A stretch of 64,000 nucleotides of DNA from Actinomycetes bacterium (GTDB lineage: Bacteria; Actinomycetota; Acidimicrobiia; Acidimicrobiales; RAAP-2). A program made the translations under genes and the position numbers. Below are positions 4,996 to 15,043 of the stretch, one piece after another. Each line of letters begins with the position of its first letter. Within the stretch, counting starts at the first letter, position 1. Below the pieces are notes generated by a model. That model was not told where the DNA came from. It saw nothing but the letters and a program-made list of their open reading frames with translations, and searched no databases. Where the stretch lies: contig JAJYWF010000001.1 in NCBI GenBank assembly GCA_021791635.1, forward strand, positions 1 through 64,000, given 5' to 3'.

Positions 4996-5871
4996 TCAGG
5001 TCCAGAGACGGTCGGTGTAGGTGTCAGTCCCCGGGATCGTCGGAATGAACGGAAGTGCCGCCACGACCGTTCCCATTCCGGCATCCTCCAGGGCATGCCG
5101 GTGCCGAGCGATGGTGGACTCCCAAGCTTCGATCGGATTGGTGTCGAGAAACCACAAGAGCAGGAGCCGCTGATCGCTGGCCTCCTGGCGGGGGACGTCA
5201 CCGGGAGCTTCGATCAAGAGGGGGAGGGGGGTGAACGCCGCCACCAGGCCGGCACCACTCCCGGGTAGGAGGCCGGGAAGATGCTCCCCTCGCAGCCACT
5301 CCGAGAGGCCGTCGGCGGTGACGGAGTCGGAGCGATCGACCCACACAGGCACCACGCCGGCGAATGGATGGTCCAATGCGACCTCCACGGGGACGGCGTC
5401 GGCACCGCGACCCTCAGCCCAGGCAAACCGGTAGAGGAGGGTGTGCACGTGATCCCGTTGCTCGAACATCCTCCCAGCAGCGTGCAGCGCCCGGACCTGA
5501 CGGACCGCCCATCGGTTCCACAGGTCGTGGTAACCGTCGAGCACCCAGTAGAGCGCCATGTATGAGCCGCGCTCGGGTGCACCGGTGATGGTCGACGGAT
5601 CCGGGTCCCGCAGGGCCTTGAGCTCGGCCGTGGCGACGTACCGGCGCCCGGCGAAATTGTACGGGCCGACCATGCACCCCGAGTAGAAGTGGTCCCGCTC
5701 GTACCAACGGTTGTAGTCCACCTCGTGACCCCGGTGGGGCTCGACCACGGTGAGGAGCATCGAACCCAGCTTCACCGGCTCGGCTCCCGCAGTCACCTCG
5801 ATCGGGCGTGGCGTCTTTGGCGTCTCGTTCGGCATCTTGGCACCGTAACATTCGTGAGCCGCTCCGCTCAC
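4996..5871 (-). CDS. Conserved hypothetical protein, possible dimeric alpha/beta-barrel (EthD-like) domain
   Basis: 291 residues from GTG; an ATG at residue 13 (5835) is an equally good start. I do not recognise a named family. The segment MLLTVVEPHRGHEVDYNRWYERDHF (positions 38-62) resembles the N-terminal strand and helix of EthD/antibiotic-monooxygenase-like ferredoxin folds. A second similar stretch (about 174-215; VPVWVDRSDSVTADGLSEWL, then RGEHLPG) suggests a tandem repeat of the fold. There is no signal peptide or membrane segment. It lies 36 bases downstream of the anti-sigma gene on the same strand and may be co-transcribed with the sigma/anti-sigma pair. It converges on lexA. Function unknown. 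Confidence 0.6.
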   Translation of the reverse strand: MSGAAHECYGAKMPNETPKTPRPIEVTAGAEPVKLGSMLLTVVEPHRGHEVDYNRWYERDHFYSGCMVGPYNFAGRRYVATAELKALRDPDPSTITGAPERGSYMALYWVLDGYHDLWNRWAVRQVRALHAAGRMFEQRDHVHTLLYRFAWAEGRGADAVPVEVALDHPFAGVVPVWVDRSDSVTADGLSEWLRGEHLPGLLPGSGAGLVAAFTPLPLLIEAPGDVPRQEASDQRLLLLWFLDTNPIEAWESTIARHRHALEDAGMGTVVAALPFIPTIPGTDTYTDRLWT

Positions 5872-5907: not shown

Positions 5908-6807
5908 TCAGGCGGTCGGCAAGCTACCGGAGGCCACAGGTGCTCGGTCCGGAGTGGCCACACCCCCAGCCGGCTCGACGGTGATGGCCAGGGCAGACGG
6001 GGTGAGGAGCGAAGAGACGGTGAAACCCGCATGCCGGGGCTGGTGCCCGAGGAGGCCCAGGGAGATCGGTTGTCCGGCGATGATGCCCCAGAGCTGGTAC
6101 GTCTCGTCGTCGGGAATGGCAGGCATCTTCGACGAGAGCATGTAGCCCTGACCGCTCGGGACGACCACGAATTCGGCCAATTGAACGCCATCGGGGGTCG
6201 TCATGTGCACGATCCGGTGACCGGGGGTCGACAGGGCCGCCTCGACGCTCGCCGTCGGACCGCGTTGAGCCAGCGCGGCCTTGGTCTGCGAGAGCTGTCC
6301 GTTGACCCGGGAGAGTTGTACGCCGAGAACGGCGATGGCCGCCACCGACGCCGCGAGGGCCAGCGCCCCGACGATCCGAGCAGTTCGCCTTCCCCTCCAT
6401 CGGTCCGCGCCCGAAAGGCTCGGGGGCTCCGTGCCCGTCGCCGCTTGCCCCTCCCACGGGCGAGTGGGGGATGGGGCTTCCGCTCTCGAGTGGAGCGACA
6501 GCTTCGGCATCGGGACCATCCCGGAGACCGACGATTCCCCCAGGGATCGATTCGATCCCGGCGACAGGCCGGCTGATATCCGTTCCCACAGCCCGGAAGG
6601 AAGCGGCTCGGTGCTCTCCAGTGCCATCGCCGTTCCCATGGATCCCGCCAGCTCTCGATAGGCGTCCACATCGGACCTACAGCGAGGGCACTCCTCCAGG
6701 TGGTGCTCGATCTTCGCCCTCTCGTCAAGATCAACGGCATCGAGTGCGTACGCGGCCAGGAGGCTCTCCACCACGTCGTGCCCGTCACCGGCCAGCCGAT
6801 CACTCAT
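5908..6807 (-). CDS. Zinc-type anti-sigma factor with RskA-like extracytoplasmic domain
   Basis: 299 residues when started at the ATG overlapping the sigma stop (ATGA, 6804-6807); the longer open frame upstream lies inside the sigma gene. The N-terminal anti-sigma domain has the zinc motif H36-x3-C40-x2-C43 (HLEECPRC), typical of factors that bind ECF sigma factors. A linker, one membrane segment (about 143-164) and an outside RskA-type domain (about 165-299; ETYQLWGII, GFTVSS) follow. Such proteins hold the sigma factor inactive until regulated proteolysis. Translational coupling to the sigma gene supports partner assignment. By inference it would sense an envelope redox or metal signal, given the divergent ferritin/cupredoxin genes. 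Confidence 0.88.
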   Translation of the reverse strand: MSDRLAGDGHDVVESLLAAYALDAVDLDERAKIEHHLEECPRCRSDVDAYRELAGSMGTAMALESTEPLPSGLWERISAGLSPGSNRSLGESSVSGMVPMPKLSLHSRAEAPSPTRPWEGQAATGTEPPSLSGADRWRGRRTARIVGALALAASVAAIAVLGVQLSRVNGQLSQTKAALAQRGPTASVEAALSTPGHRIVHMTTPDGVQLAEFVVVPSGQGYMLSSKMPAIPDDETYQLWGIIAGQPISLGLLGHQPRHAGFTVSSLLTPSALAITVEPAGGVATPDRAPVASGSLPTA

Positions 6808-7373
6808 GGCTCCCTCACCTCGAATTCGTCCAATACGTGCTTCATTCGTCGGAGTCCCGAACGGATCCTGCTCTTCACCGTCCCTTCGGGCTCCGACAGC
6901 TTCGTCGCCACCTCCCGGTACGTGTACCCCCCGTAGTAGGCCATGGTGATCGGCAGCCTCTCGTCTTCGGGAAGGGATGCCAGAGCCTGGCCCACCTGAT
7001 CGGCCACCGTGAACTCCCACACCTCTCGCTCGAGGTCGCCCCCGGTAGCGACTGCACCCCGCACGTCTGCTTCCTCCCGGCGGGCCCGAGCTGACTCGGA
7101 GCGCACGACATCGACCGAGCGGCTGTGGGACTGCGTGAGGAGGTACGACCTCAGCGTGCCGCGAGCCGGATCGAACCGCTCGGGATGGTTCCAGAGCCTG
7201 AGGAAGACCTCCTGGGTGACGTCCTCGGCCAGTCCGGCGTCGCCGGTGACCCGACGGGCCACGTTGTACACGACCGCTCCGTGCCGGCGGTACACCTCGG
7301 CCAGGGCGTCCTCCTGGAAGCGGCCGACAGCTACGACCAGCTGCGCGTCCCCGAGCTCTCTCACGTGTGGCAC
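6804..7373 (-). CDS. ECF-family RNA polymerase sigma factor (SigK-like)
   Basis: The sigma2 region (ALAEVYRRHGAVVYNVARRV, then DVTQEVFLRLW) and sigma4 region (LPEDERLPITMAYYGGYTYR and the helix-turn-helix EGTVKSRIRSGLRRM) are clear. The open frame extends to a TTG at 7457, but that is the first base of the divergent ferritin-like gene. I prefer the GTG at 7373, giving 189 residues and an about 80-base divergent promoter region; GTG at 7364 is also possible. Its RskA-type partner overlaps its stop codon, so SigK/RskA-type logic is likely. Target promoters are probably those of the ferritin-like run (inference). Confidence 0.88.
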   Translation of the reverse strand: MPHVRELGDAQLVVAVGRFQEDALAEVYRRHGAVVYNVARRVTGDAGLAEDVTQEVFLRLWNHPERFDPARGTLRSYLLTQSHSRSVDVVRSESARARREEADVRGAVATGGDLEREVWEFTVADQVGQALASLPEDERLPITMAYYGGYTYREVATKLSEPEGTVKSRIRSGLRRMKHVLDEFEVREP

Positions 7374-7422
7374 CGAGTGAGTATCCGGTGCCGGGGTCCG
7401 GTCTGGACGAGGGAAACCCGGA

Positions 7423-7450
7423 TCATCCGCGAACCTCGGTGGCATCGGAA
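7423..7450 (+). promoter_or_regulatory. Possible ECF-sigma promoter, near-leaderless, for the 7457 gene
   Basis: TCATCC (7423-7428), 17 bases, CGGAA (7446-7450), only 6 bases before the ATG at 7457. It resembles the two CCATCC-N16-CGGAT/CGAAG elements upstream of the 8467 gene and, from memory, the mycobacterial SigK consensus (CCATCC, CGAAT). One mismatch in each half makes it tentative. Confidence 0.3.
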
Positions 7451-7456
7451 CCTTCA

Positions 7457-8248
7457 ATGACTATGCGAACCACCATCGACTCCTACAAGACCCGAGCCGG
7501 TCGGCTCGACACGTCCGACATCGACTTCGGCTCGTTCATGGACCGTCCGCTCTCTCCGGAGGGCCTTCGCTGTCTCCGGTACATGCACGATATCGAACAT
7601 CACACTGTCTGCTACCTACGTGATCTTCTGCTGACCCCGGCCCACAGGGATCCCGACGTCACCGCGTTCCTCTCGTGCTGGAGCTACGAAGAGCTCTGGC
7701 ACGGGGAGGCCATCGCCTGCGTCCTGGAAGCTCACGGGGAGGAGGCAGGAGCCCCGAGGATCGCCAGGCTCCGATCACGTCGCCCCAAGCGGGACCTGCT
7801 GGCTCTGGTGGCAAAGCTCGGGCTCTCGACCACCGCCGGTGACGCGTTCGTGGCGCTGCACATGACCTGGGGCGCAGTGAACGAGTGGACTACCCAAGCC
7901 GGGTATGCCCGCCTGGCTTCCCTCGAAGGTCATCCGGTCCTGTCCGAGCTCCTGAAGCGCATCATGAAACAGGAGGGCCGCCACGTCGACTTCTACGCAT
8001 CCGAGGCAGCGCGCCGGCTCACCGGAAAGCCGAGATATCAGCGGCTCACCAGACTGGCGCTTCGCCATCTCTGGCGACCGGTCGGTTCAGGGGTGATGCC
8101 GCGTTCCGAGGTGGCATTCCTGGTTCAGCATCTCTTCGACGGCGAAGAAGGGCGGTCGATGGCCGCACGGATCGATCGGAGGATCGACGCGCTTCCGGGC
8201 CAAGAGGGCTTGGACCTTCTCGGCCGAGCGGTGGCCCGTACCAGGTGA
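7457..8248 (+). CDS. Cytosolic ferritin-like di-iron protein
   Basis: 263 residues from the ATG at 7457; the open frame further upstream overlaps the sigma gene. Four-helix ferritin-like signature: E in DIEHHT, E-x2-H in YEELWHGEA, E in GAVNEWTT and E-x2-H in KQEGRHVDFY, i.e. a full E/ExxH/E/ExxH di-iron ligand set. No signal peptide or membrane segment is visible. The reaction is unknown: candidates are iron oxidation, peroxide removal or an oxygenase. It diverges from the ECF sigma gene and is the first of three ferritin-like genes in a row, so regulation by that sigma factor is likely. Confidence 0.75.
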   Translation: MTMRTTIDSYKTRAGRLDTSDIDFGSFMDRPLSPEGLRCLRYMHDIEHHTVCYLRDLLLTPAHRDPDVTAFLSCWSYEELWHGEAIACVLEAHGEEAGAPRIARLRSRRPKRDLLALVAKLGLSTTAGDAFVALHMTWGAVNEWTTQAGYARLASLEGHPVLSELLKRIMKQEGRHVDFYASEAARRLTGKPRYQRLTRLALRHLWRPVGSGVMPRSEVAFLVQHLFDGEEGRSMAARIDRRIDALPGQEGLDLLGRAVARTR

Positions 8249-8272
8249 GGAGAAGTCCTCGGTGAACTTTGC

Positions 8273-8299
8273 CCATCCAACCGGGCGTCGGCACCGGAT
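8273..8299 (+). promoter_or_regulatory. Candidate ECF-sigma promoter upstream of the 8467 ferritin-like gene (copy 1)
   Basis: CCATCC, 16-base spacer, CGGAT. It agrees with the SigK-type -35/-10 pattern as I remember it. It lies in the 218-base gap (8249-8466) between the first and second ferritin-like genes. A second CCATCC-N16 element lies 53 bases further on. Confidence 0.4.
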
Positions 8300-8325
8300 A
8301 CCAGTCGGGTACCGGGATGGGACTT

Positions 8326-8352
8326 CCATCCGGGTGCCGGCGAACGGCGAAG
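8326..8352 (+). promoter_or_regulatory. Candidate ECF-sigma promoter upstream of the 8467 ferritin-like gene (copy 2)
   Basis: CCATCC (8326-8331), 16-base spacer, CGAAG (8348-8352). Same geometry as copy 1. It would give a leader of about 105 bases before the GTG at 8467. The rest of the gap shows no gene. Confidence 0.4.
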
Positions 8353-8466
8353 CCACAGTGCGAGGCACGAGTAGATCAGTCGAGGGTGTCTTCGGACGCC
8401 GGCAGTGGCCCAGTCACATCAACTGACCGACAGCAACCCAATACAAGCCCGATACAAGGAGGCGAA

Positions 8467-9339
8467 GTGACCACAGACCCAGGAGCCTTGAAGGCTCTCC
8501 TAGAAGAGTCCCAGGACGTCCAGACGGACGCCCTTCGGGCCAGTGCCGAACCGCTTGAAGAACTGGTGGAGATCGGGAGGCTCGGATCCACAATGGAAGC
8601 TCGAAGCGATGTCACGACGAACCAGCAGTTCGCCGCCGAGCACCGTCGCTCCCTCCAAGCCAGTCTGGCCGGAGCCTCGGCCCTCGGCGTTGCCGGTGGA
8701 GGGCTCCTCCTCGGAATGCTGGCCTCTCCGGCCTTCGCATCATCTTCGCCCGACATCCAGATGCTCCAGACTGCGGCGTCGATCGAGGTCCTGGCCGTGA
8801 GCACCTACACCACGGCGCTGACGCTTCCCTACATCGGAGGGTCCACAGCCAATCCAGTGGTCACCAAGTTCTGTCAGGTCACGCGGAGCCAGCACACACA
8901 GCACGAGAAGGCGTTCAATGCCGCCATCACCGGACTGGGCGGGAAGGTCCAGACCAACCCTGACCCGGTCTTCGTCCCTGTGGTCCAAAAGGCCGTAGCC
9001 AGTTTGGCTGGTGCCTCGGCAGCCCAGGGAGCGCTCGGCGTTGTGGCTCTGGCACTCGAGCTCGAGAACGTGGCGGCCGAGACCTACGTGAACGACACCA
9101 TCAAAGCGTCGAGCTCGCAGAACAAGGCCCTCTTCGCCAGCATCATGGGCGTCGAGGCCCAGCACGCCGCGGTGCTCCTTGCCGTTCAGGCTCTACTGAA
9201 AGCAGGTGCACCCCAGCTCATCTCCCTGACACCGGCAACCGTGACCAAGCTCCCGGCCGCGGCCGGGAACGTTGCCTTCCCCAATGCCTTCTACCCGACC
9301 AGCCAGGCCGCGCCTGCGAACCAAGGAGCCGTAAAGTGA
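8467..9339 (+). CDS. Exported ferritin-like protein with Tat-type signal after a long N-terminal arm
   Basis: 290 residues from GTG, chosen because AAGGAGG lies just upstream; the longer frame back to 8269 has no such site. A soluble arm (1-58) precedes a twin-arginine segment (HRRSLQ, R60-R61), a hydrophobic stretch (about 66-86) and a signal-peptidase-like site (AFA-S, about 91). The mature part is a ferritin-like domain (PF13668 type) with E107, the HTQHE segment, ELENVAAETY and EAQH as likely metal ligands. It overlaps the next gene by GTGA. Function in the envelope (iron binding or peroxide handling) is inferred. The arm before the signal is unusual. Confidence 0.78.
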   Translation: MTTDPGALKALLEESQDVQTDALRASAEPLEELVEIGRLGSTMEARSDVTTNQQFAAEHRRSLQASLAGASALGVAGGGLLLGMLASPAFASSSPDIQMLQTAASIEVLAVSTYTTALTLPYIGGSTANPVVTKFCQVTRSQHTQHEKAFNAAITGLGGKVQTNPDPVFVPVVQKAVASLAGASAAQGALGVVALALELENVAAETYVNDTIKASSSQNKALFASIMGVEAQHAAVLLAVQALLKAGAPQLISLTPATVTKLPAAAGNVAFPNAFYPTSQAAPANQGAVK

Positions 9340-10142
9340 GAGACCACCAGAACCCGATGGCCGCGTCCGAAGACGAGGTCCACCGCATGACCGGCGACCT
9401 CGACGCCCTCCACCACGACGTGGGCATGCCGGCGATGAAGGCCAGTCTGGCCGAGTGGAGGGAGCACCTTCGCTCGGGCACCACGAAGCCCACGAGCCGC
9501 CGGGTGTTCCTCCTCGGCACGGGCGGTCTCATCGGCGCCGGGGCACTGGCCGCGGCCTGTTCGAGCTCCCCGAGCAGCACGTCGAAGGCTGCAGCGGCCG
9601 GTGCCTCGGCGGGCACCAGTGGATCCGCGACTCAGGCGCAGCTCTCCGGCGACCTCGCCGTAGCGGCCCTGGCGGCGAGCTTGGAGAACCTGGCGGTGTA
9701 TGCCTACGGTGCAGCGATCAGCGCCGCCAAGGCCGGAAAGCTCGGCACGGTGCCTCCGGCCATCAGCCAGTTCGCCGTCACCGTGCGGACACAGCACGTC
9801 CAGCACGCGGCGGCCTGGAACTCCATTCTCACGGCGGCCGGGAAAAAGCGGGTGACCGTCACCGACCCCACGCTCACGCCGACGGTGAACCAGAAGTTCG
9901 CCCAAGTGACCAACGTCACCGAGCTGGGACAGTTGGCGCTGCTGCTGGAGAACATCGCCGCCCAGACCTACCAGGCCGAGGCGTCCAAACTCCACAGCAG
10001 CAAGGCGGTCGCGGTGGCGTCGACCATCCAGCCGGTCGAGATGCAGCACGCGGCGATCCTCTACTACGTGCTGGGCGAGTACCCGGGCATCCAGAACTCC
10101 TCGGGTCCTCTGGCCTTCAACCCCACCACACAAGCAGCCTGA
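9336..10142 (+). CDS. Ferritin-like Tat lipoprotein
   Basis: 268 residues, GTG start in a GTGA overlap with the preceding ferritin-like gene. An arm of 54 residues precedes a classical Tat motif (SRRVFLL, R55-R56), a hydrophobic stretch and a lipobox (LAAAC, C75), so the protein is probably exported folded and lipid-anchored. The ferritin-like domain follows, with helices carrying ASLENLAVYAY, QHVQH, LLENIAAQTY and VEMQH as likely di-iron ligands. It is a paralogue of the upstream gene. Tat export would allow cofactor insertion before translocation, consistent with the tatB and tatC genes just downstream. Confidence 0.8.
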   Translation: MRDHQNPMAASEDEVHRMTGDLDALHHDVGMPAMKASLAEWREHLRSGTTKPTSRRVFLLGTGGLIGAGALAAACSSSPSSTSKAAAAGASAGTSGSATQAQLSGDLAVAALAASLENLAVYAYGAAISAAKAGKLGTVPPAISQFAVTVRTQHVQHAAAWNSILTAAGKKRVTVTDPTLTPTVNQKFAQVTNVTELGQLALLLENIAAQTYQAEASKLHSSKAVAVASTIQPVEMQHAAILYYVLGEYPGIQNSSGPLAFNPTTQAA

Positions 10143-10165
10143 ACCGCTGATCCCCTGTCCCCCCG

Positions 10166-10206
10166 CCCCACGGGCACGGTGCCATCCCGGCGCCGTGCCC
10201 GTGGGG
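10166..10206. terminator. Long GC hairpin between ferritin-like lipoprotein and cupredoxin genes
   Basis: A perfect 14-bp stem (10166-10179 with 10193-10206) and a 13-base loop lie 24 bases after the ferritin-like stop. No T-run follows. It may be a partial terminator or an mRNA-stability element separating the ferritin-like genes from the cupredoxin-tat genes. A GTG at 10179 lies in this hairpin and is unlikely to be the cupredoxin start. Confidence 0.5.
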
Positions 10207-10226
10207 ACGTGACCGAAAGGCCCTCC

Positions 10227-10739
10227 ATGGCCACCTCACGACTTCCCCGCTCCACCGATTCGAGCTGCCGTCCAGAGCAGTGCCACGGCTCGACCGCTCC
10301 ATCGAAGCTTGGCGAGCGTCCAGCGCAGCCCCGGAGACGGCCCCGTGGCCGGCCCCGAGGACCACGCCGGGGCCGACGCATCACCGGAGCTGTTCTGGTC
10401 CTGTCCGTTCTCGGGCTGCTGCTCGGCGCATGTTCGACGGCGTCCTCGTCAGGGCCAACCCAGTCGGCCACGCCGAGCTCGGGAGCCGCATCGGCCACGA
10501 TCACCATCCAGAACTTCTCTTTCATGCCGGCGACCCTGACCGTACGTCCCCGGGCTCGGGTCACCGTCACCAACCGTGACTCGGTGACCCACACGCTGAC
10601 GTCCACCACCCGCGTCTTCAACACCGGTGACATCGCACCCGGACAGACGGTCACCTTCATTGCGCCTAGCGCTCCGGGGAAGTACCCGTACCTGTGCCTG
10701 ATCCATCAGTACATGACCGGCACTCTGATCGTCTCCTGA
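10227..10739 (+). CDS. Cupredoxin-type (type 1 copper) lipoprotein
   Basis: 170 residues from the ATG at 10227, preceded by GAAAGG; an upstream GTG at 10179 sits in a hairpin. An arginine/proline-rich arm with RRGRR, a hydrophobic stretch and a lipobox (LLGAC, C69) indicate lipid anchoring outside the membrane, possibly through Tat. The mature domain is a small blue-copper fold with the ligands H122 (VTHTL), C157, H160 and M163 (YLCLIHQYM). It would carry electrons or bind copper in the envelope. Between ferritin-like proteins and tatBC it may pass electrons to or from the ferritin-like partners; that is inference. Confidence 0.85.
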   Translation: MATSRLPRSTDSSCRPEQCHGSTAPSKLGERPAQPRRRPRGRPRGPRRGRRITGAVLVLSVLGLLLGACSTASSSGPTQSATPSSGAASATITIQNFSFMPATLTVRPRARVTVTNRDSVTHTLTSTTRVFNTGDIAPGQTVTFIAPSAPGKYPYLCLIHQYMTGTLIVS

Positions 10740-10752
10740 CGGCCACGACGTC

Positions 10753-11268
10753 ATGCTCCCCCTCGACCCGATCAAGCTGGCGATCATCGCCCTGGTGGCC
10801 CTGGTGGTCCTCGGGCCCGACAAGCTGCCGGCCGCCGCCCGCAAGGTGGCGTCGGTGTGGTCCGAGGTCCGCAACCTTCAGAGCTCGCTCCAGCGAGAAG
10901 TCTCCGGCCTGGTCTCCGAGCTCCCGCTGGTCGATTCCGTGCCGGCCTCCCTCCCCGACGCTCCCGGCGAGCTGATCGGTCGGGCTCGGAGCTTCCTCAA
11001 CGGACCAACCGACCCTCGCCAGGCCCTCTACCGGTCCATCGGCCTCTCCGAGGCCGACGACGGCGTGACGGATGGCGCTCTCGCTGGCTCGCTCGCTGGC
11101 CCAGTGGACAGCCCGGTCGACGCTCCAGTGGACGGCGCAGCCCGGGGAAGGGGAACCGACTCGGGACCCGGCACCGACGACCCCGTCCCCGCTTCGATCC
11201 CGATCCTGGTCCCAAGATCCCCCGGTCTCGCCGGGACGATGACGTTCGGTGACCCGGGCGCCAACTGA
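10753..11268 (+). CDS. tatB: Twin-arginine translocase subunit TatB-like
   Basis: 171 residues, ATG start. An N-terminal membrane helix (about 7-20), the hinge LGPDKLP and an amphipathic helix (AARKVASVWSEVRNLQSSLQREV, residues 28-50) are the TatA/TatB pattern; the Asp-Lys hinge and long charged tail favour TatB. The C-terminal 70 residues are low-complexity. It partners TatC, whose gene overlaps its end, in recognising RR signal peptides. Only one TatA/B-type protein is present here, so TatA may be encoded elsewhere or this one may serve both roles. The two preceding ferritin-like genes carry Tat signals. Confidence 0.82.
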   Translation: MLPLDPIKLAIIALVALVVLGPDKLPAAARKVASVWSEVRNLQSSLQREVSGLVSELPLVDSVPASLPDAPGELIGRARSFLNGPTDPRQALYRSIGLSEADDGVTDGALAGSLAGPVDSPVDAPVDGAARGRGTDSGPGTDDPVPASIPILVPRSPGLAGTMTFGDPGAN

Positions 11269-12073
11269 CGCCGGTGACGACATGAGCTTTCCCTGGCACT
11301 CCCTGGCCCTTCGAGGAGCCGGCCGGGTGACACCACCGAACCCGATGACCCTGGGCGAGCACTTGTCCGAGCTTCGCCATCGGGTCTTGGTGGTCGCGGC
11401 GGTATTCACCGTGGCCAGCGTCGCGGCCTTCATCCTCTACAGCCACACCCTCGCACTCTTGCTGGCTCCCTACTGTCAGGCCCTCGGGCCGGGGCACTCG
11501 TGCCACCTCTACGTGACCGGACCTCTCGACGGCCTCTCGCTCCGGGTCGAGGTGGCGGCCTACAGCGCCCTGGCCATCTGTCTCCCGGTCATCCTCTGGC
11601 ATGGATGGCGGTTCGTCGCGCCGGGCCTGCTCCCGCGCGAGCGGCGTCGGGCGATGGCCTTCGTCACCTCCTCGACCATGCTGTTCGCGGCGGGTGCGGC
11701 GGTGGCCTTCCTTGTGTTCCCCCGAGCCCTGCGCTTCCTCGACGCCGTCGGAGGGCCGTCGCTGCACCAGCTGTACTCCCCTTCGAGCTACGTGGGCCTG
11801 TTGTTGTTGATGATGGCGGCCTTCGGCGTCACCTTCGAGCTCCCCGTCCTCTTGGTCTTCTTGCAGCTGGCCGGCATCGTCACCCCCACCCAGCTCTCGT
11901 CATGGCGTCGGTGGGCGATCGTCGCCCTGGTGACGCTGGCGGCCGTCATCACCCCCAGCTCCGACCCCTTCTCGATGCTGGCGATGGCCGTGCCGCTCCT
12001 CGTCTTCTACGAGGCGTCGATCGTCATCGGGCGCCTGGTGCTCCGCGCCAGGAATGCCGCACCGGCCCACTGA
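11249..12073 (+). CDS. tatC: Twin-arginine translocase subunit TatC
   Basis: 274 residues from GTG, overlapping tatB by 20 bases; an ATG at 11282 is an alternative start that gives no overlap. Six membrane segments are predicted. The family motif HLSELRHRV near the N-terminus binds the RR signal peptide. FELPVLLVFL and ITPSSDPFSMLAMAVPLLVFYE near the C-terminus are typical TatC sequence. It forms the substrate receptor with TatB. Position after two Tat-exported ferritin-like proteins and a copper lipoprotein suggests dedicated or co-regulated export. Confidence 0.93.
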   Translation: MTRAPTDAGDDMSFPWHSLALRGAGRVTPPNPMTLGEHLSELRHRVLVVAAVFTVASVAAFILYSHTLALLLAPYCQALGPGHSCHLYVTGPLDGLSLRVEVAAYSALAICLPVILWHGWRFVAPGLLPRERRRAMAFVTSSTMLFAAGAAVAFLVFPRALRFLDAVGGPSLHQLYSPSSYVGLLLLMMAAFGVTFELPVLLVFLQLAGIVTPTQLSSWRRWAIVALVTLAAVITPSSDPFSMLAMAVPLLVFYEASIVIGRLVLRARNAAPAH

Positions 12074-12078
12074 TCCAG

Positions 12079-13431
12079 GTGGGCCACCCCGCAGACCCGA
12101 CCGCAGAACCGTCCGAGGACCAGGTCGACACCCGGGCAGCCAGTGGCTGGGACGGACAGCGCCTGCTCTCCCGGCGCCGGGTCCAGACGGTCCTCGGAGC
12201 GCTCTGGATCCTCGACGCCCTCCTGCAGGCCCGACCGGCGTTGTTCAGCCCGCACTACCCGACCCGCACACTGGCCCAGTCGGCGATGGGGTCCCCCGCC
12301 TGGGAGCGCCACCTGATCTTCGCCGGGATCCACCCGTTCGCCGCCCACTGGGGTTGGTGGAACCTGGGAGCGGTCATCCTCCAAGCGGCCATCGGCGCGG
12401 CGTTGATGTCCGGACGCTGGGTGAGGACGGCGCTGTGCTGGTCGTTTGTCTGGGCTGCCGTGGTGTGGCTACTCGGAGAGGGGCTCGGCTTGGTCCCGAC
12501 CGGCTTCGCCCTCATGGCCGCCGGGGCCCCGGGGCCGGCGGTGCTCATGGTGGCAGCCGGCGGCCTCGCTTGGCCCCACCCCGTCCATCGTGACGTGTCG
12601 GCACGCGCCTGGAGCGTCGTGTGGGTCGCACTGTGGGCGGGAACGGCGGCGATGGTGATCCCCTGGGTGTACCCGGTCCGCGAGATGCTCACCGCCAACC
12701 TCTCCGAAGTGGCGCAGGGCCAACCGGCGCCGCTCGCCCACCTGTCCGACGCCACCACCCGGCTGGTGACCTCGGACCCCGTGGCGATCGCCGTCGCCAT
12801 GGTGGCGGTCCAGTTGGCCGTGGCCGGCGGTTGGCTGGCCGACCGTCGCCATCGGCGCCCTTGGCTACTGGTGGCAGTCGTCGTCACCCTCGTCTACTGG
12901 GTGGCCGGTCAGGCCCTCGGGGGAATGCTCGAGCCCAGCGGCACCGACCCGGGCACGGCGCCTTTGGTGGTGTTGCTGGCCCTCGCCGCCTGGCCCGCCC
13001 GGACCGTTTGGCCCGCCCGCACCGCCCGGCCCGGCTCCTCGGCCGGGTGCCGCGCTCAAGCCGGTGTCGTGGCCCAGCCCGACGCCGGATCAGCGAGCAG
13101 GCCGGCAAGGACCGTCCGCACCTGGTCCAGTGAGCTGGCCCGGACGTGCTCGTCGGCCCGGTGGGCCAAGAGCGGGTCCCCGGGTCCGAAATTGGCCGCC
13201 GGCACCCCCCGCTCGGCGAACCTCGACACGTCGGTCCATCCGACCTTGGCCTTCGCTGACGCGCCACTGGCCCCGACGAGGGCCGACACCAGCGGGTGGT
13301 GGAGTCCGGGGAGGGCCCCCGGCGCCTGGTCCACCACGTCGACCCGGTCGCCCAGCTCGTCGTCGAGGAGCCCGGCGGTGAGGGCTTCGAGGAACTCCCG
13401 GGCCGCCGGCTCGTCACGATCAGGCGCGTAG
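12079..13431 (+). CDS. Polytopic membrane protein of unknown function (3' end overlaps dapE)
   Basis: 450 codons from a GTG 5 bases after the tatC stop; the frame open further upstream is the antiphase of tatC. The first about 310 residues show seven or eight hydrophobic segments (from LGALWILDALLQARPALF to LVVLLALAAW) and resemble small DoxX-like or uncharacterised actinobacterial membrane proteins with a WLLDGLLQ-type N-terminus. The last about 125 residues are Ser/Arg/Ala-rich, coincide with the antisense of dapE (13056-13431) and look non-native, so either a frameshift or a real convergent overlap is present. It is probably co-transcribed with tatBC. Function unknown. Confidence 0.6.
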   Translation: MGHPADPTAEPSEDQVDTRAASGWDGQRLLSRRRVQTVLGALWILDALLQARPALFSPHYPTRTLAQSAMGSPAWERHLIFAGIHPFAAHWGWWNLGAVILQAAIGAALMSGRWVRTALCWSFVWAAVVWLLGEGLGLVPTGFALMAAGAPGPAVLMVAAGGLAWPHPVHRDVSARAWSVVWVALWAGTAAMVIPWVYPVREMLTANLSEVAQGQPAPLAHLSDATTRLVTSDPVAIAVAMVAVQLAVAGGWLADRRHRRPWLLVAVVVTLVYWVAGQALGGMLEPSGTDPGTAPLVVLLALAAWPARTVWPARTARPGSSAGCRAQAGVVAQPDAGSASRPARTVRTWSSELARTCSSARWAKSGSPGPKLAAGTPRSANLDTSVHPTLAFADAPLAPTRADTSGWWSPGRAPGAWSTTSTRSPSSSSRSPAVRASRNSRAAGSSRSGA

Positions 13432-14156
13432 CGGTAGTTCACGGTGAGAGCTGCGGTGTCCGGCACCACGTTCCCGGCCACGCCCCCCTCCACTCCCACG
13501 GCCTGGAGCTGCTCGACGTACTCGCAGCCGTCGAGGACCACGGCTCGGCCCTCCCAGCCGGCCACCGTCGCGAGCACCGGAGCCAGGCGGTGGATGGCGT
13601 TCACCCCGGCGTACGGCCGGGCGGTGTGGGCCCGCACCCCGCCCACGTGCACGACGGCCCGCATGGTCCCCTGGCACCCGGCCTCGACCCTGCCGTCGGT
13701 AGGCTCGGCCAGGACGGCCATGTCGGCCTCCAGGAGGTCGGGCCGGGCCGACCAGAGCTCCTCCAACCCGCTCTCATGACGGCTCACCTCTTCGCGGGCG
13801 TAGAAGCACCACGTCACGTCCACCACCGGTGCCGCCACCTGGCGCGCCAAGGCCACCATGACCGCGAGACCGCCTTTCATGTCGCAAGCCCCGAGTCCCC
13901 AGACTGCGTCACCGGTGATCCTGGCCTTCTCGTTCCCTGCCGGCGGCACGGTGTCGAGATGCCCGGCGACGATCACCCGGCGGGGGCGGCCGAGGCGGGT
14001 ACGGGCCACGACGTTCTCCCCGACCCGCTCCACCTCCAGCCAACCACACTGCGAAAGACTCGATGTCACCCAGTCGGCCAGCATCCCTTCATCCCGGCTG
14101 GTCGACGGGATGGCCACCAGCTCGGCGGTGAGAGCCACGAGGTCCGTCGAGGTCAC
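13056..14156 (-). CDS. dapE: Succinyl-diaminopimelate desuccinylase (M20 peptidase family)
   Basis: 366 residues from the GTG that overlaps the dapD stop (GTGA); the frame open further upstream is inside dapD. M20 metal and catalytic motifs are GHLDTVPP (His and Asp), GLGACDMKGG (bridging Asp), FYAREEVS (general base and metal Glu) and AEPTDG, with a late GPGDPLLAHRADEHV His ligand. The enzyme hydrolyses N-succinyl-L,L-diaminopimelate to LL-DAP and succinate. It is translationally coupled to dapD and follows dapC, completing the succinylase branch. Other M20 deacylases are similar, but context makes DapE secure. Confidence 0.92.
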   Translation of the reverse strand: MTSTDLVALTAELVAIPSTSRDEGMLADWVTSSLSQCGWLEVERVGENVVARTRLGRPRRVIVAGHLDTVPPAGNEKARITGDAVWGLGACDMKGGLAVMVALARQVAAPVVDVTWCFYAREEVSRHESGLEELWSARPDLLEADMAVLAEPTDGRVEAGCQGTMRAVVHVGGVRAHTARPYAGVNAIHRLAPVLATVAGWEGRAVVLDGCEYVEQLQAVGVEGGVAGNVVPDTAALTVNYRYAPDRDEPAAREFLEALTAGLLDDELGDRVDVVDQAPGALPGLHHPLVSALVGASGASAKAKVGWTDVSRFAERGVPAANFGPGDPLLAHRADEHVRASSLDQVRTVLAGLLADPASGWATTPA

Positions 14157-15043
14157 GCCGAGACCCCGTGCTCCCGCAGCACGGCGTTCAGCTGCGCCTT
14201 GTCGTGGCGCTGCCCTTCGGAGAGGCGCTTGATCACCAGGACGCACGGGAGGAAGAACTCCCCTCCGGGGTACGTGCGCCGCCGGGAGGCCGAGACGGCG
14301 ACCGACCAGGCTGGGACGACGCCGCGTCCGAGCTCCTCACCGGTCTCGGCATCGACCACCGGGATGCTCGGGTTCAGGATCGTCCCCTCCCCGAGGACCG
14401 CCCCCCGTCCGACCCGGGCACCTTGAGTCACCATGCAACGGCTTCCCACCAGGGCGTCGTCTTCGATCACCACCGGCGTGGCGTTCGGAGGTTCGAGCAC
14501 TCCCCCGATGCCGACCCCCCCGGACAGGTGCACCCGGGCCCCGACCTGGGCGCAGGACCCGACCGTCGCCCACGTGTCGACCATGGTGTCGGCGCCGACC
14601 CGGGCGCCGATGTTCACGTAACCGGGCATCAGGATGACCCCGGGGGCCAGGTACGACCCCCACCGAGCCGAACCTCCCGGCACCACCCGGACTCCTGCCG
14701 CCGCGTAGTCACGCTTCAAAGGAAGCTTGTCGGCGAACTCGAACGGCCCTACCTCGACCGTCTCGACGGAGCGGAGCCTGAACAGCAGCAGGATGGCCTT
14801 CTTCAACCACTCGTGGACCACCACCTGGTCGTCGCTTCCGATCTCGGCCACCCGGAGGACGCCCCGATCGAGCAGGTCGATCGCCTCGGTGACCGCCTCC
14901 GCCCCGGTCCCCGACGGCGGCCCGCCGCCAGCCACCTGCTCCCAGAGCTCCTCCACGGCCGGCGCCAGCTCGGCACCGGGCCCGGCGGCGTCCGACGCCG
15001 GCCGAAGGGATGGCGGATGGTGTGGGGGTGTGGGGGTGCTCAC
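14153..15043 (-). CDS. dapD: Tetrahydrodipicolinate N-succinyltransferase, E. coli type
   Basis: 296 residues. A helical N-terminal domain precedes a left-handed beta-helix built of hexapeptide repeats (ILMPGYVNIGARVGADTMV at about 137-155, then DTWATVGSCAQVG and HLSGGVGIGGVLEPP). These strings closely match the proteobacterial DapD, rather than the divergent mycobacterial form as I remember it. It transfers succinyl from succinyl-CoA to tetrahydrodipicolinate. It lies between dapC (41-base gap) and dapE (GTGA overlap). The proline-rich first 30 residues are an extension. Confidence 0.94.
   Translation of the reverse strand: MSTPTPPHHPPSLRPASDAAGPGAELAPAVEELWEQVAGGGPPSGTGAEAVTEAIDLLDRGVLRVAEIGSDDQVVVHEWLKKAILLLFRLRSVETVEVGPFEFADKLPLKRDYAAAGVRVVPGGSARWGSYLAPGVILMPGYVNIGARVGADTMVDTWATVGSCAQVGARVHLSGGVGIGGVLEPPNATPVVIEDDALVGSRCMVTQGARVGRGAVLGEGTILNPSIPVVDAETGEELGRGVVPAWSVAVSASRRRTYPGGEFFLPCVLVIKRLSEGQRHDKAQLNAVLREHGVSA

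Follow-up and report, generated by a model that had tools for sequence, protein, structure and literature searches.

An ECF sigma/RskA-type locus of Acidimicrobiales encoding ferritin-like proteins, a cupredoxin and linked Tat genes

The SigK-RskA regulon of Mycobacterium tuberculosis (mpt70, mpt83 and dipZ) combines an extracytoplasmic function (ECF) sigma factor with a membrane anti-sigma factor and has exported envelope proteins as targets. In the twin-arginine translocation (Tat) pathway, second or dedicated translocases are encoded with one substrate in Bacillus subtilis (TatAdCd with PhoD) and in Staphylococcus (TatAC with FepABC), and cyanobacterial MncA/CucA exemplify metal sorting by export route. 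The ferritin-like family PF13668 (Ferritin_2) includes the FeMP proteins (tardigrade RvFeMP-1 and Deinococcus DRB0118, with plant PCC13-62 as a relative). Here we analysed 64,000 nucleotides (the window) of contig JAJYWF010000001.1, which is contig C34 of a 2.46 Mb Acidimicrobiales genome in 155 contigs (assembly GCA_021791635.1). In this window, a SigK/RskA-like gene pair on the minus strand lies divergent to a plus-strand run encoding, in order, a cytosolic diiron-type protein, two ferritin-like proteins (F1 and F2), a cupredoxin, a TatB-like protein and TatC.

Set against these systems, the module is an ECF/RskA envelope regulon with a new cargo, ferritin-like proteins and a cupredoxin instead of MPT70/83. 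Each part is of a known kind; the assembly, a clade of ferritin-like proteins with HxxH in the metal site and the repeated capture of Tat genes appear new. In the open-licence literature, no description was found of ferritin-like proteins and cupredoxins together with an anti-sigma factor, with "Acidimicrobi" or with "twin-arginine". With moderate confidence, we read the locus as a self-regulated envelope metalloprotein operon, in which F1, F2 and the cupredoxin would be made under their own sigma factor, exported with the help of Tat and used for redox chemistry. Judged from sequence comparison, regulation and export are well supported; iron/copper redox or peroxide chemistry is what we infer.

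Recurrence of the module

A sequence-only reading of the window had described this eight-gene arrangement, and every gene was found at the place and on the strand it had given. Recurrence of the neighbourhood was then searched for in related genomes, and it was found. Among 41 genomes (the window's own and 40 relatives), 15 carried PF13668 proteins, most with adjacent pairs. In 20 fetched regions, one of which is the window genome's other TatC, tblastn detected the pair with cupredoxin, sigma factor, anti-sigma factor and often the cytosolic gene, in varying order; at three loci with weak PF13668 matches (L039-L041), tblastn matched none of the module proteins. Named genomes were also scanned with the F1 alignment, and the best 80 of 159 loci were kept. 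Together with the window they form a set of 81 loci, all of which hold F1 by choice. Searches with our own profiles, covering up to about 8 kb on each side (and 18 kb of the window), found F2 in 79 of these loci, the cupredoxin in 57, the sigma factor in 43, the anti-sigma factor in 39, the cytosolic protein in 13 and TatC in 11. These counts are lower bounds, since many loci end at contig ends. The sigma gene was divergent from, and within 1.5 kb of, a module gene in 35 loci; in L096, L108, L110 and L112 the sigma match is several kb distant and could be a different ECF factor.

The module is shared by little-known bacteria from soil and acid waters. The hosts of the best 80 loci are mostly metagenome-assembled genomes (MAGs) labelled Acidimicrobiia or Actinomycetes, and include Ferrithrix thermotolerans, Aciditerrimonas ferrireducens, a Ferrimicrobium MAG, Actinokineospora, Dactylosporangium and others. 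In a draw across the phylum, the F1 profile had matches at E <= 0.001 in 35 of 396 genomes, most of them weak. The set is thus found repeatedly in Acidimicrobiia and also elsewhere in Actinomycetota, and the joint recurrence of F1, F2 and cupredoxin in dozens of loci is more than chance. Its membership is not fixed, which weighs against our reading: searches of the 81 loci missed the cupredoxin in 24 and the sigma factor in 38, some of them ending at contig ends, so neither is strictly needed.

Other recurrent neighbours (an ABC transporter, DsbD_TM/CcdA, Kdp-like, glycosyl hydrolase 99 and DUF4395 genes) mostly track close relatives and were dropped as module parts. The DsbD_TM/CcdA-type gene, a family named from the L067 copy, lies about 6.5-7.2 kb upstream of F1 in L061, L067, L068, L082 and L086; DipZ of the SigK regulon also has such a domain. 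Two genomes (G029 and G025) each hold three PF13668 pairs on separate contigs (L026, L031, L035, L036, L037, L038), one G029 pair being accompanied by TatC, and some pairs are of a second, more distant type that also stands beside sigma and anti-sigma genes (L023, L026, L038). One locus titled Saccharibacteria (L050) and two titled Acidobacteriota (L058, L064) carry F1 sequences near-identical in the tree to actinobacterial records; they are probably mislabelled or misbinned MAGs.

The sigma factor, its anti-sigma factor and a candidate promoter

The sigma gene (6804..7364, minus strand; Sigma70_r2/r4, PF04542/PF04545) probably starts at the GTG at 7364, picked by eye in a frame open to 7457, and its stop overlaps by 4 bases the start of the adjoining anti-sigma gene (5908..6807, minus strand). 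Among 17 solved structures matched by the sigma factor, M. tuberculosis SigK (4nqw) was the best (E 6e-27). The NCBIfam SigK subfamily was also its top model, but with 153 bits against a cut-off of 226. The anti-sigma factor exceeded the cut-off for RskA_C (PF10099, E 7.2e-18) and matched zf-HC2 (PF13490, E 2.7e-8). The pair proposed from the sequence alone is thus upheld as SigK/RskA-like.

It differs from the mycobacterial pair in two respects. An HxxxCxxC motif, a difference from M. tuberculosis RskA, is present in 30 of 31 aligned anti-sigma factors, the remaining one being a fragment, and the segment 'AYALDAVDLDERAKIEHHL' of the window's protein resembles by eye the AS19-1 helix motifs quoted in PMC7406223. 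The window's sigma protein contains, by eye, no cysteine and thus lacks the C133-C183 switch of SigK. Cysteines were likewise missing from the last 190 residues of 31 of 36 aligned sigma factors, four having one and one having two. A SigK-type cysteine redox switch was therefore ruled out for this sigma factor, and a different trigger is likely. According to PMC7509140, the cysteine pair is conserved in 94% of ECF18 and 56% of ECF19 members, so it is not strictly defining.

In 35 intergenic regions, the words CATCCG (23/35; 4.0 in shuffles) and CGAATA (17/35; 1.4 in shuffles) were enriched. With gaps of 10-23 tried, 15 exact CATCC...CGAATA pairs were found: the 11 on the operon strand all had N16, and the four on the opposite strand N16 or N17. 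The motif TCATCC-N14-17-CCGAATA was then scored over 260 bases upstream of the first module gene (fewer for the window's cytosolic gene), with a cut of at least 11 of 13 bases and 200 shuffle sets. The 43 regions represent 42 sigma-bearing loci, the window contributing two; L074 was dropped as too short, as were two sigma-less loci. The motif was present in 28 of the 43 regions (shuffle mean 0.53, maximum 4), with a spacing of N15 in 22 of the 28, and a control inside F1 gave no match at this cut. At 12 or more bases, 18 regions were retained (shuffle mean 0.045), and after near-copies had been thinned the motif was still found in 18 of 31 regions (shuffle mean 0.43, maximum 4). Because these regions also supplied the consensus, the comparison with shuffles somewhat overstates independence. 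A promoter of this type is supported by the constant spacing and by resemblance to the SigK consensus, which Veyrier in 2008 reportedly gave as CCATCC-N14-15-CCGAAT. No SigK promoter consensus was found in the accessible parts of PMC4821874 and PMC7509140.

In the window, the candidate promoter is CCATCC-N15-CCGGATA at 8273..8300 (plus strand), before F1. It is the sole match in the window to CATCC-N15-CCGRATA with at most one mismatch (0.32 expected; a match occurred in 25 of 100 shuffles). Genome-wide, CATCCN{15,16}CGRATA gave five matches, one of them before F1, and a wider regulon is not claimed, since the reversed-pattern control also gave one match. Another of the five lies before a methyltransferase-like gene (by eye) beside a sortase-like gene, and another among frames that by eye resemble an acyltransferase.

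Several observations speak against control of the operon by its neighbouring sigma factor. The window's promoter scores only 11/13, and a second, weak candidate before the cytosolic gene (7423..7451, plus strand) 10/13, under the cut. The motif is missing in 14 of the 42 sigma-bearing loci (L046, L049, L067, L073, L081, L085, L088, L089, L096, L100, L105, L108, L110 and L112), among them two with linked TatC (L100, L105) and that of the cultured Ferrithrix (L089). It is present in 9 of 36 loci with no sigma gene in view (shuffle mean 0.2, maximum 4), so that another sigma factor may read it there, or the sigma gene may lie elsewhere. The sigma/anti-sigma pair might then be a mere neighbour with a regulon of its own and no hold on the ferritin genes, as the 38 loci without a sigma gene and the position of the cytosolic gene beyond the pair in relative G007 would also allow. 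We consider this very unlikely, given the motif close upstream of the first module gene in 28 of the 42 sigma-bearing loci. The earlier proposal that the sigma factor drives the operon is thus in line with a SigK-type promoter predicted before the module genes far more often than by chance.

On the other side of the pair, a minus-strand gene (4996-5871) encodes a protein without Pfam or NCBIfam match, whose relative in G024 (72% identity) also adjoins an anti-sigma gene.

Predicted metal sites and export of the ferritin-like proteins

F1 (8467..9339) and F2 (9336..10142), both on the plus strand, scored 53.2 and 55.1 bits against PF13668 (cut-off 24.7). Profile matches of F1 to solved structures reached only E 0.033 and 0.048, and for F1 and the cytosolic protein predicted folds were therefore compared. 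With Foldseek, neither model had a match at E <= 0.001. In a second comparison, the core of F1 aligned among the matches listed with ferritins and bacterioferritins (Z 16.1-17.7 over 133-159 residues, root-mean-square deviation (rmsd) 1.9-3.6, 5-19% identity), bearing in mind that helical bundles readily give high Z-scores. FeMP was not among these matches, which tests nothing. The mean predicted local distance difference test (pLDDT) score of the F1 model, only 64, speaks against leaning heavily on this four-helix fold.

The metal site differs from that of described relatives. Residues E107, H143, H146, E200, E230 and H233 are invariant across 11 F1 sequences. Ferritins have ExxH on both helix pairs as ferroxidase ligands; in F1 and F2, which moreover carry an envelope leader, helix B has HxxH instead. 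The helix-B His that takes the place of FeMP Glu90 is present in all 11 F1 and 12 F2 sequences of the seed alignments. The six ligand columns were also read in 221 distinct translated frames matching the F1 and F2 profile, a count that includes near-copies and takes frames cut at different contig ends separately. They read EHHEEH in 171 frames, EHHEDH in 6 and EEHEEH in 25, the remaining 19 being partial or odd. The EHHEEH set extends to remoter pairs within the order (L003, L006, L125-L129, L131, L132) and to one protein from outside it (L139); every EEHEEH frame belongs to a genome of the phylum draw that lies outside the order. HxxH can thus be taken as the mark of F1, F2 and their nearer kin, with distant PF13668 proteins keeping ExxH in helix B. 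Some F2 copies vary at the ligands, the second helix-B His being replaced by A or Q and the helix-D Glu by D or A, as in EHAEAR (L020) and EHQEDH (L122). Since these copies are altered, F1 may hold the main metal site, and the variants suggest that F2 is a structural rather than a catalytic partner in such lineages.

What this site does has to be weighed between three possibilities. FeMP is the one characterised PF13668 group that we found; according to PMC11616004, it is a phosphatase with a dinuclear site whose ligands are Glu51, Glu90, His93, Glu132, Asp135 and Asp162. F1 and F2 share with it the family score and a secretion signal, and they could be hydrolytic in the same way, in an envelope stress or desiccation module comparable to the metabolite phosphatases of tardigrades and Deinococcus. 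We find this improbable. According to the same text (PMC11616004), Glu90 of helix B touches both metals; F1 and F2 have His there, so the phosphatase activity should not be carried over to them. They further differ from FeMP in their near-constant tandem pairing (79 of 81 loci), N-terminal extension and cupredoxin and sigma partners, and the cupredoxin points to redox chemistry.

Alternatively, F1 and F2 may be envelope ferroxidases of iron-rich acid habitats that act on Fe(II) and hand the electrons to the cupredoxin. The predicted F1 fold, closest to bacterioferritins, would suit such a role, as would hosts such as Ferrithrix thermotolerans, Aciditerrimonas ferrireducens and the Ferrimicrobium MAG. 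However, Actinokineospora and Dactylosporangium, which to our knowledge are not iron bacteria, are also hosts, and the helix-B Glu of the ferroxidase centre is replaced, so we rate this possibility as rather unlikely. A less specific redox role beside the cupredoxin, iron/copper or peroxide directed, is the one we retain.

The cytosolic protein (7463..8248, plus strand) had been described as ferritin-like, a label that the predicted fold changes. No Pfam family exceeded its cut-off (PF03405 FA_desaturase_2, 12.9 bits against 22.7), and the best profile matches to solved structures were a designed helix bundle (E 3.7e-5) and DesA2 (E 0.0055). Six sequences share invariant E47, E79, H82, E143, E173 and H176, an E, ExxH, E, ExxH pattern. 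The model (mean pLDDT 85) aligned over its whole length, in the top eight matches of the same Z-based comparison, with seven acyl-acyl carrier protein (ACP) desaturases and one R2-like ligand-binding oxidase (R2lox), at Z 17.0-17.8 over 207-236 residues (rmsd 3.1-3.6) and 13-19% identity. These residues and the predicted fold indicate a desaturase/R2-like protein rather than a ferritin.

Both ferritin-like proteins had been proposed to be Tat-exported; by motif, this stands for F2 and mostly not for F1. Ahead of the signal, both have conserved N-terminal extensions. Upstream of the hydrophobic stretch, RRx[FLVIM] was present in 49 of 50 F2 sequences analysed, and the sole exception (L049) has SRRHFL further upstream; the window's F2 carries the Tat lipoprotein signal SRRVFLLG...AAC, and lipobox-like motifs were seen in 37 of 79 F2. 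In F1, RRx[FLVIM] was found in 6 of 71 sequences analysed and RR in 12, the window's among them; the hydrophobic stretch of its leader, ending in an AxA-like site, is kept in the sequences listed. Outside this count fell 29 of 79 F2, for which the anchor pattern was not found, and 11 of 82 F1. Since the twin arginine is conserved in F2 and mostly not in F1, F1 is most simply read as leaving the cell together with F2. Counting RR more loosely, at any place within the 110 residues ahead of the core, goes against so sharp a division, giving 61 of 79 for F2, with some regions misplaced, and 43 of 82 for F1.

The cupredoxin (10227..10739, plus strand; PF13473, E 8.5e-13) has the type 1 copper ligands His, Cys, His and Met (H...CxxHxxM), found by pattern in 49 of 57 sequences; the other eight show H and CxxHxxM by eye. 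Depending on which of three patterns is used, 38 to 40 of the 57 have a lipobox-like motif. They are probably exported through the general secretory (Sec) pathway in most cases. This route is not certain, because RR occurs within 32 residues before the lipobox in 21 of 40 leaders, and also in the window's; a loose Tat pattern was found in 6 of 40.

Linked Tat genes and a proposed mechanism

The TatB-like gene (10753..11268, plus strand) exceeds the cut-off of PF02416 (TatA_B_E; 27.6 bits against 21, E 1.7e-6) and lies below that of TIGR01410 (41.1 against 56.5), the best of 10 models. TatC (11249..12073, plus strand) exceeds both PF00902 (198.6 bits against 25.1, E 1.3e-58) and TIGR00945 (186.8 against 132.7). 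It is a second copy, the genome's other TatC being on contig C135. Copies were counted in 21 genomes, of which 12 have a linked TatC (the window's, G029 and 10 reached from loci). Two TatC were found in 10 of these 12; no TatC was detected in G433 (L069, a fragment at a contig end), and G438 (L115) has two fragments. Among the nine genomes without linkage, seven have one TatC and two none.

In a tree of 27 TatC sequences, 10 of them linked and two fragments being left out, the linked copies do not form one group. Seven changes of the linkage label, by gain or loss, are needed, and each is required by branches with support; counts this low arose in 126 of 500 shuffles, so the label shows no excess clustering. 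In four pairings with support, a linked copy joins another TatC of the same genome or of a near-identical genome pair (L100; L098; G029; L058/L066), and the linked copies of L092 and L105 fall in one supported group with the other copies of their own genomes. The window's TatC groups with that of L045, beside other copies of the family. These pairings imply repeated duplication of TatC, a pattern that gene conversion could mimic. In the F1 tree (79 rows), Tat linkage likewise changes seven times, at least five by supported branches, and its arrangement differs among loci (downstream on the same strand or upstream and divergent, TatAC or TatBC).

A survey of 298 genomes of the order, which overlaps the named loci (e.g. 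G490 = L121, G513 = L105, G543 = L092, G602 = L066, G630 = L098), associates extra TatC with F1. Two TatC were present in 11 of 48 F1-bearing and 15 of 250 other genomes (Fisher p 0.0008) at an F1 cut of E <= 1e-50, set after viewing the list, and in 14 of 78 against 12 of 220 (p 0.0015) at E <= 0.001. Two-TatC counts were made by eye and include some split genes, and both tests take no account of kinship. In 10 of the 11 F1-bearing two-TatC genomes, TatC lies beside the pair, G684 being the exception and linkage in G666 being deduced from a fragment followed over a contig end.

Linked Tat genes could be ordinary housekeeping genes that happen to lie near a ferritin-cupredoxin cluster. TatC is found within 8 kb in only 11 of the 81 loci, and G464 has a linked TatC as the only one found (the genome is 63% complete). 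We nevertheless rejected chance linkage, which we regard as extremely improbable: the linked copy is extra in the window's genome and in most others with linkage, it occurs in different arrangements scattered over the TatC and F1 trees, and chance would place a TatC near about 0.5% of loci (16 kb, about one tatC per 3.1 Mb). The earlier suggestion that the Tat genes are encoded with their substrates therefore needs qualification. An additional linked copy is tied to these genes, yet it is optional and repeatedly acquired rather than part of the core. Linkage is a minority condition, two of the 11 cases being fragments, so housekeeping Tat suffices in most loci. The second translocase beside a presumed substrate resembles TatAdCd-PhoD and TatAC-FepABC; the substrate family is another, and linkage here seems to have arisen repeatedly. 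In the open literature, the precedent of tatAC with FepB and a Tat substrate was not found.

Directly after TatC, a plus-strand frame (12094-13431), membrane-like by eye and with no family over cut-off, has relatives beside the module in G007, G008 and G021, while G024 gave a short match. In its 3' part, this frame is overlapped by another on the minus strand (13056-14246).

Altogether, we propose the following mechanism for the self-regulated envelope operon. The membrane RskA-type anti-sigma factor would hold the SigK-type ECF sigma factor until an envelope signal frees it, and transcription would then start from TCATCC-N15-CCGAATA-type promoters, which are predicted by sequence statistics and presumably bound by this sigma factor. 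F1 and F2, ferritin-like proteins of predicted four-helix fold whose metal site is modified to E..HxxH..E..ExxH, would fold and load metal in the cytoplasm. They would probably leave as a folded hetero-oligomer on the Tat signal of F2, which in the window also bears a lipobox, so that the metal of the His-rich site would be fixed away from outside copper. The cupredoxin lipoprotein, probably Sec-exported in most lineages, would pick up its copper outside. At the outer face it might exchange electrons with the ferritin-like pair, in either direction, for iron/copper redox chemistry or for the reduction of peroxide or O2; this step is the least certain. Where a duplicated TatBC or TatAC came to lie beside the pair, as in several lineages, it would give the pair an exporter of its own.

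More tentatively, F1 and F2 may form a new enzyme class, ferritin-like, exported and redox-active, with a three-His three-Glu site loaded in the cytoplasm, a hetero-oligomer travelling on one Tat signal and an electron partner that receives copper outside. The need for folded export might then have driven repeated tatC duplication beside the substrate in Actinomycetota.

These results give an uncharacterised ferritin-like clade a candidate regulon and promoter, and join ferritin-like and blue-copper proteins in one envelope unit. They also offer a natural series in which a protein exporter was seemingly duplicated repeatedly and tied to one cargo. Two questions thereby become testable: whether the choice of export route lets a cell sort metals between proteins, and whether dedicated Tat systems owe their evolution to hitchhiker export. 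For iron-cycling acidophiles, F1, F2 and the cupredoxin are candidate surface redox proteins.

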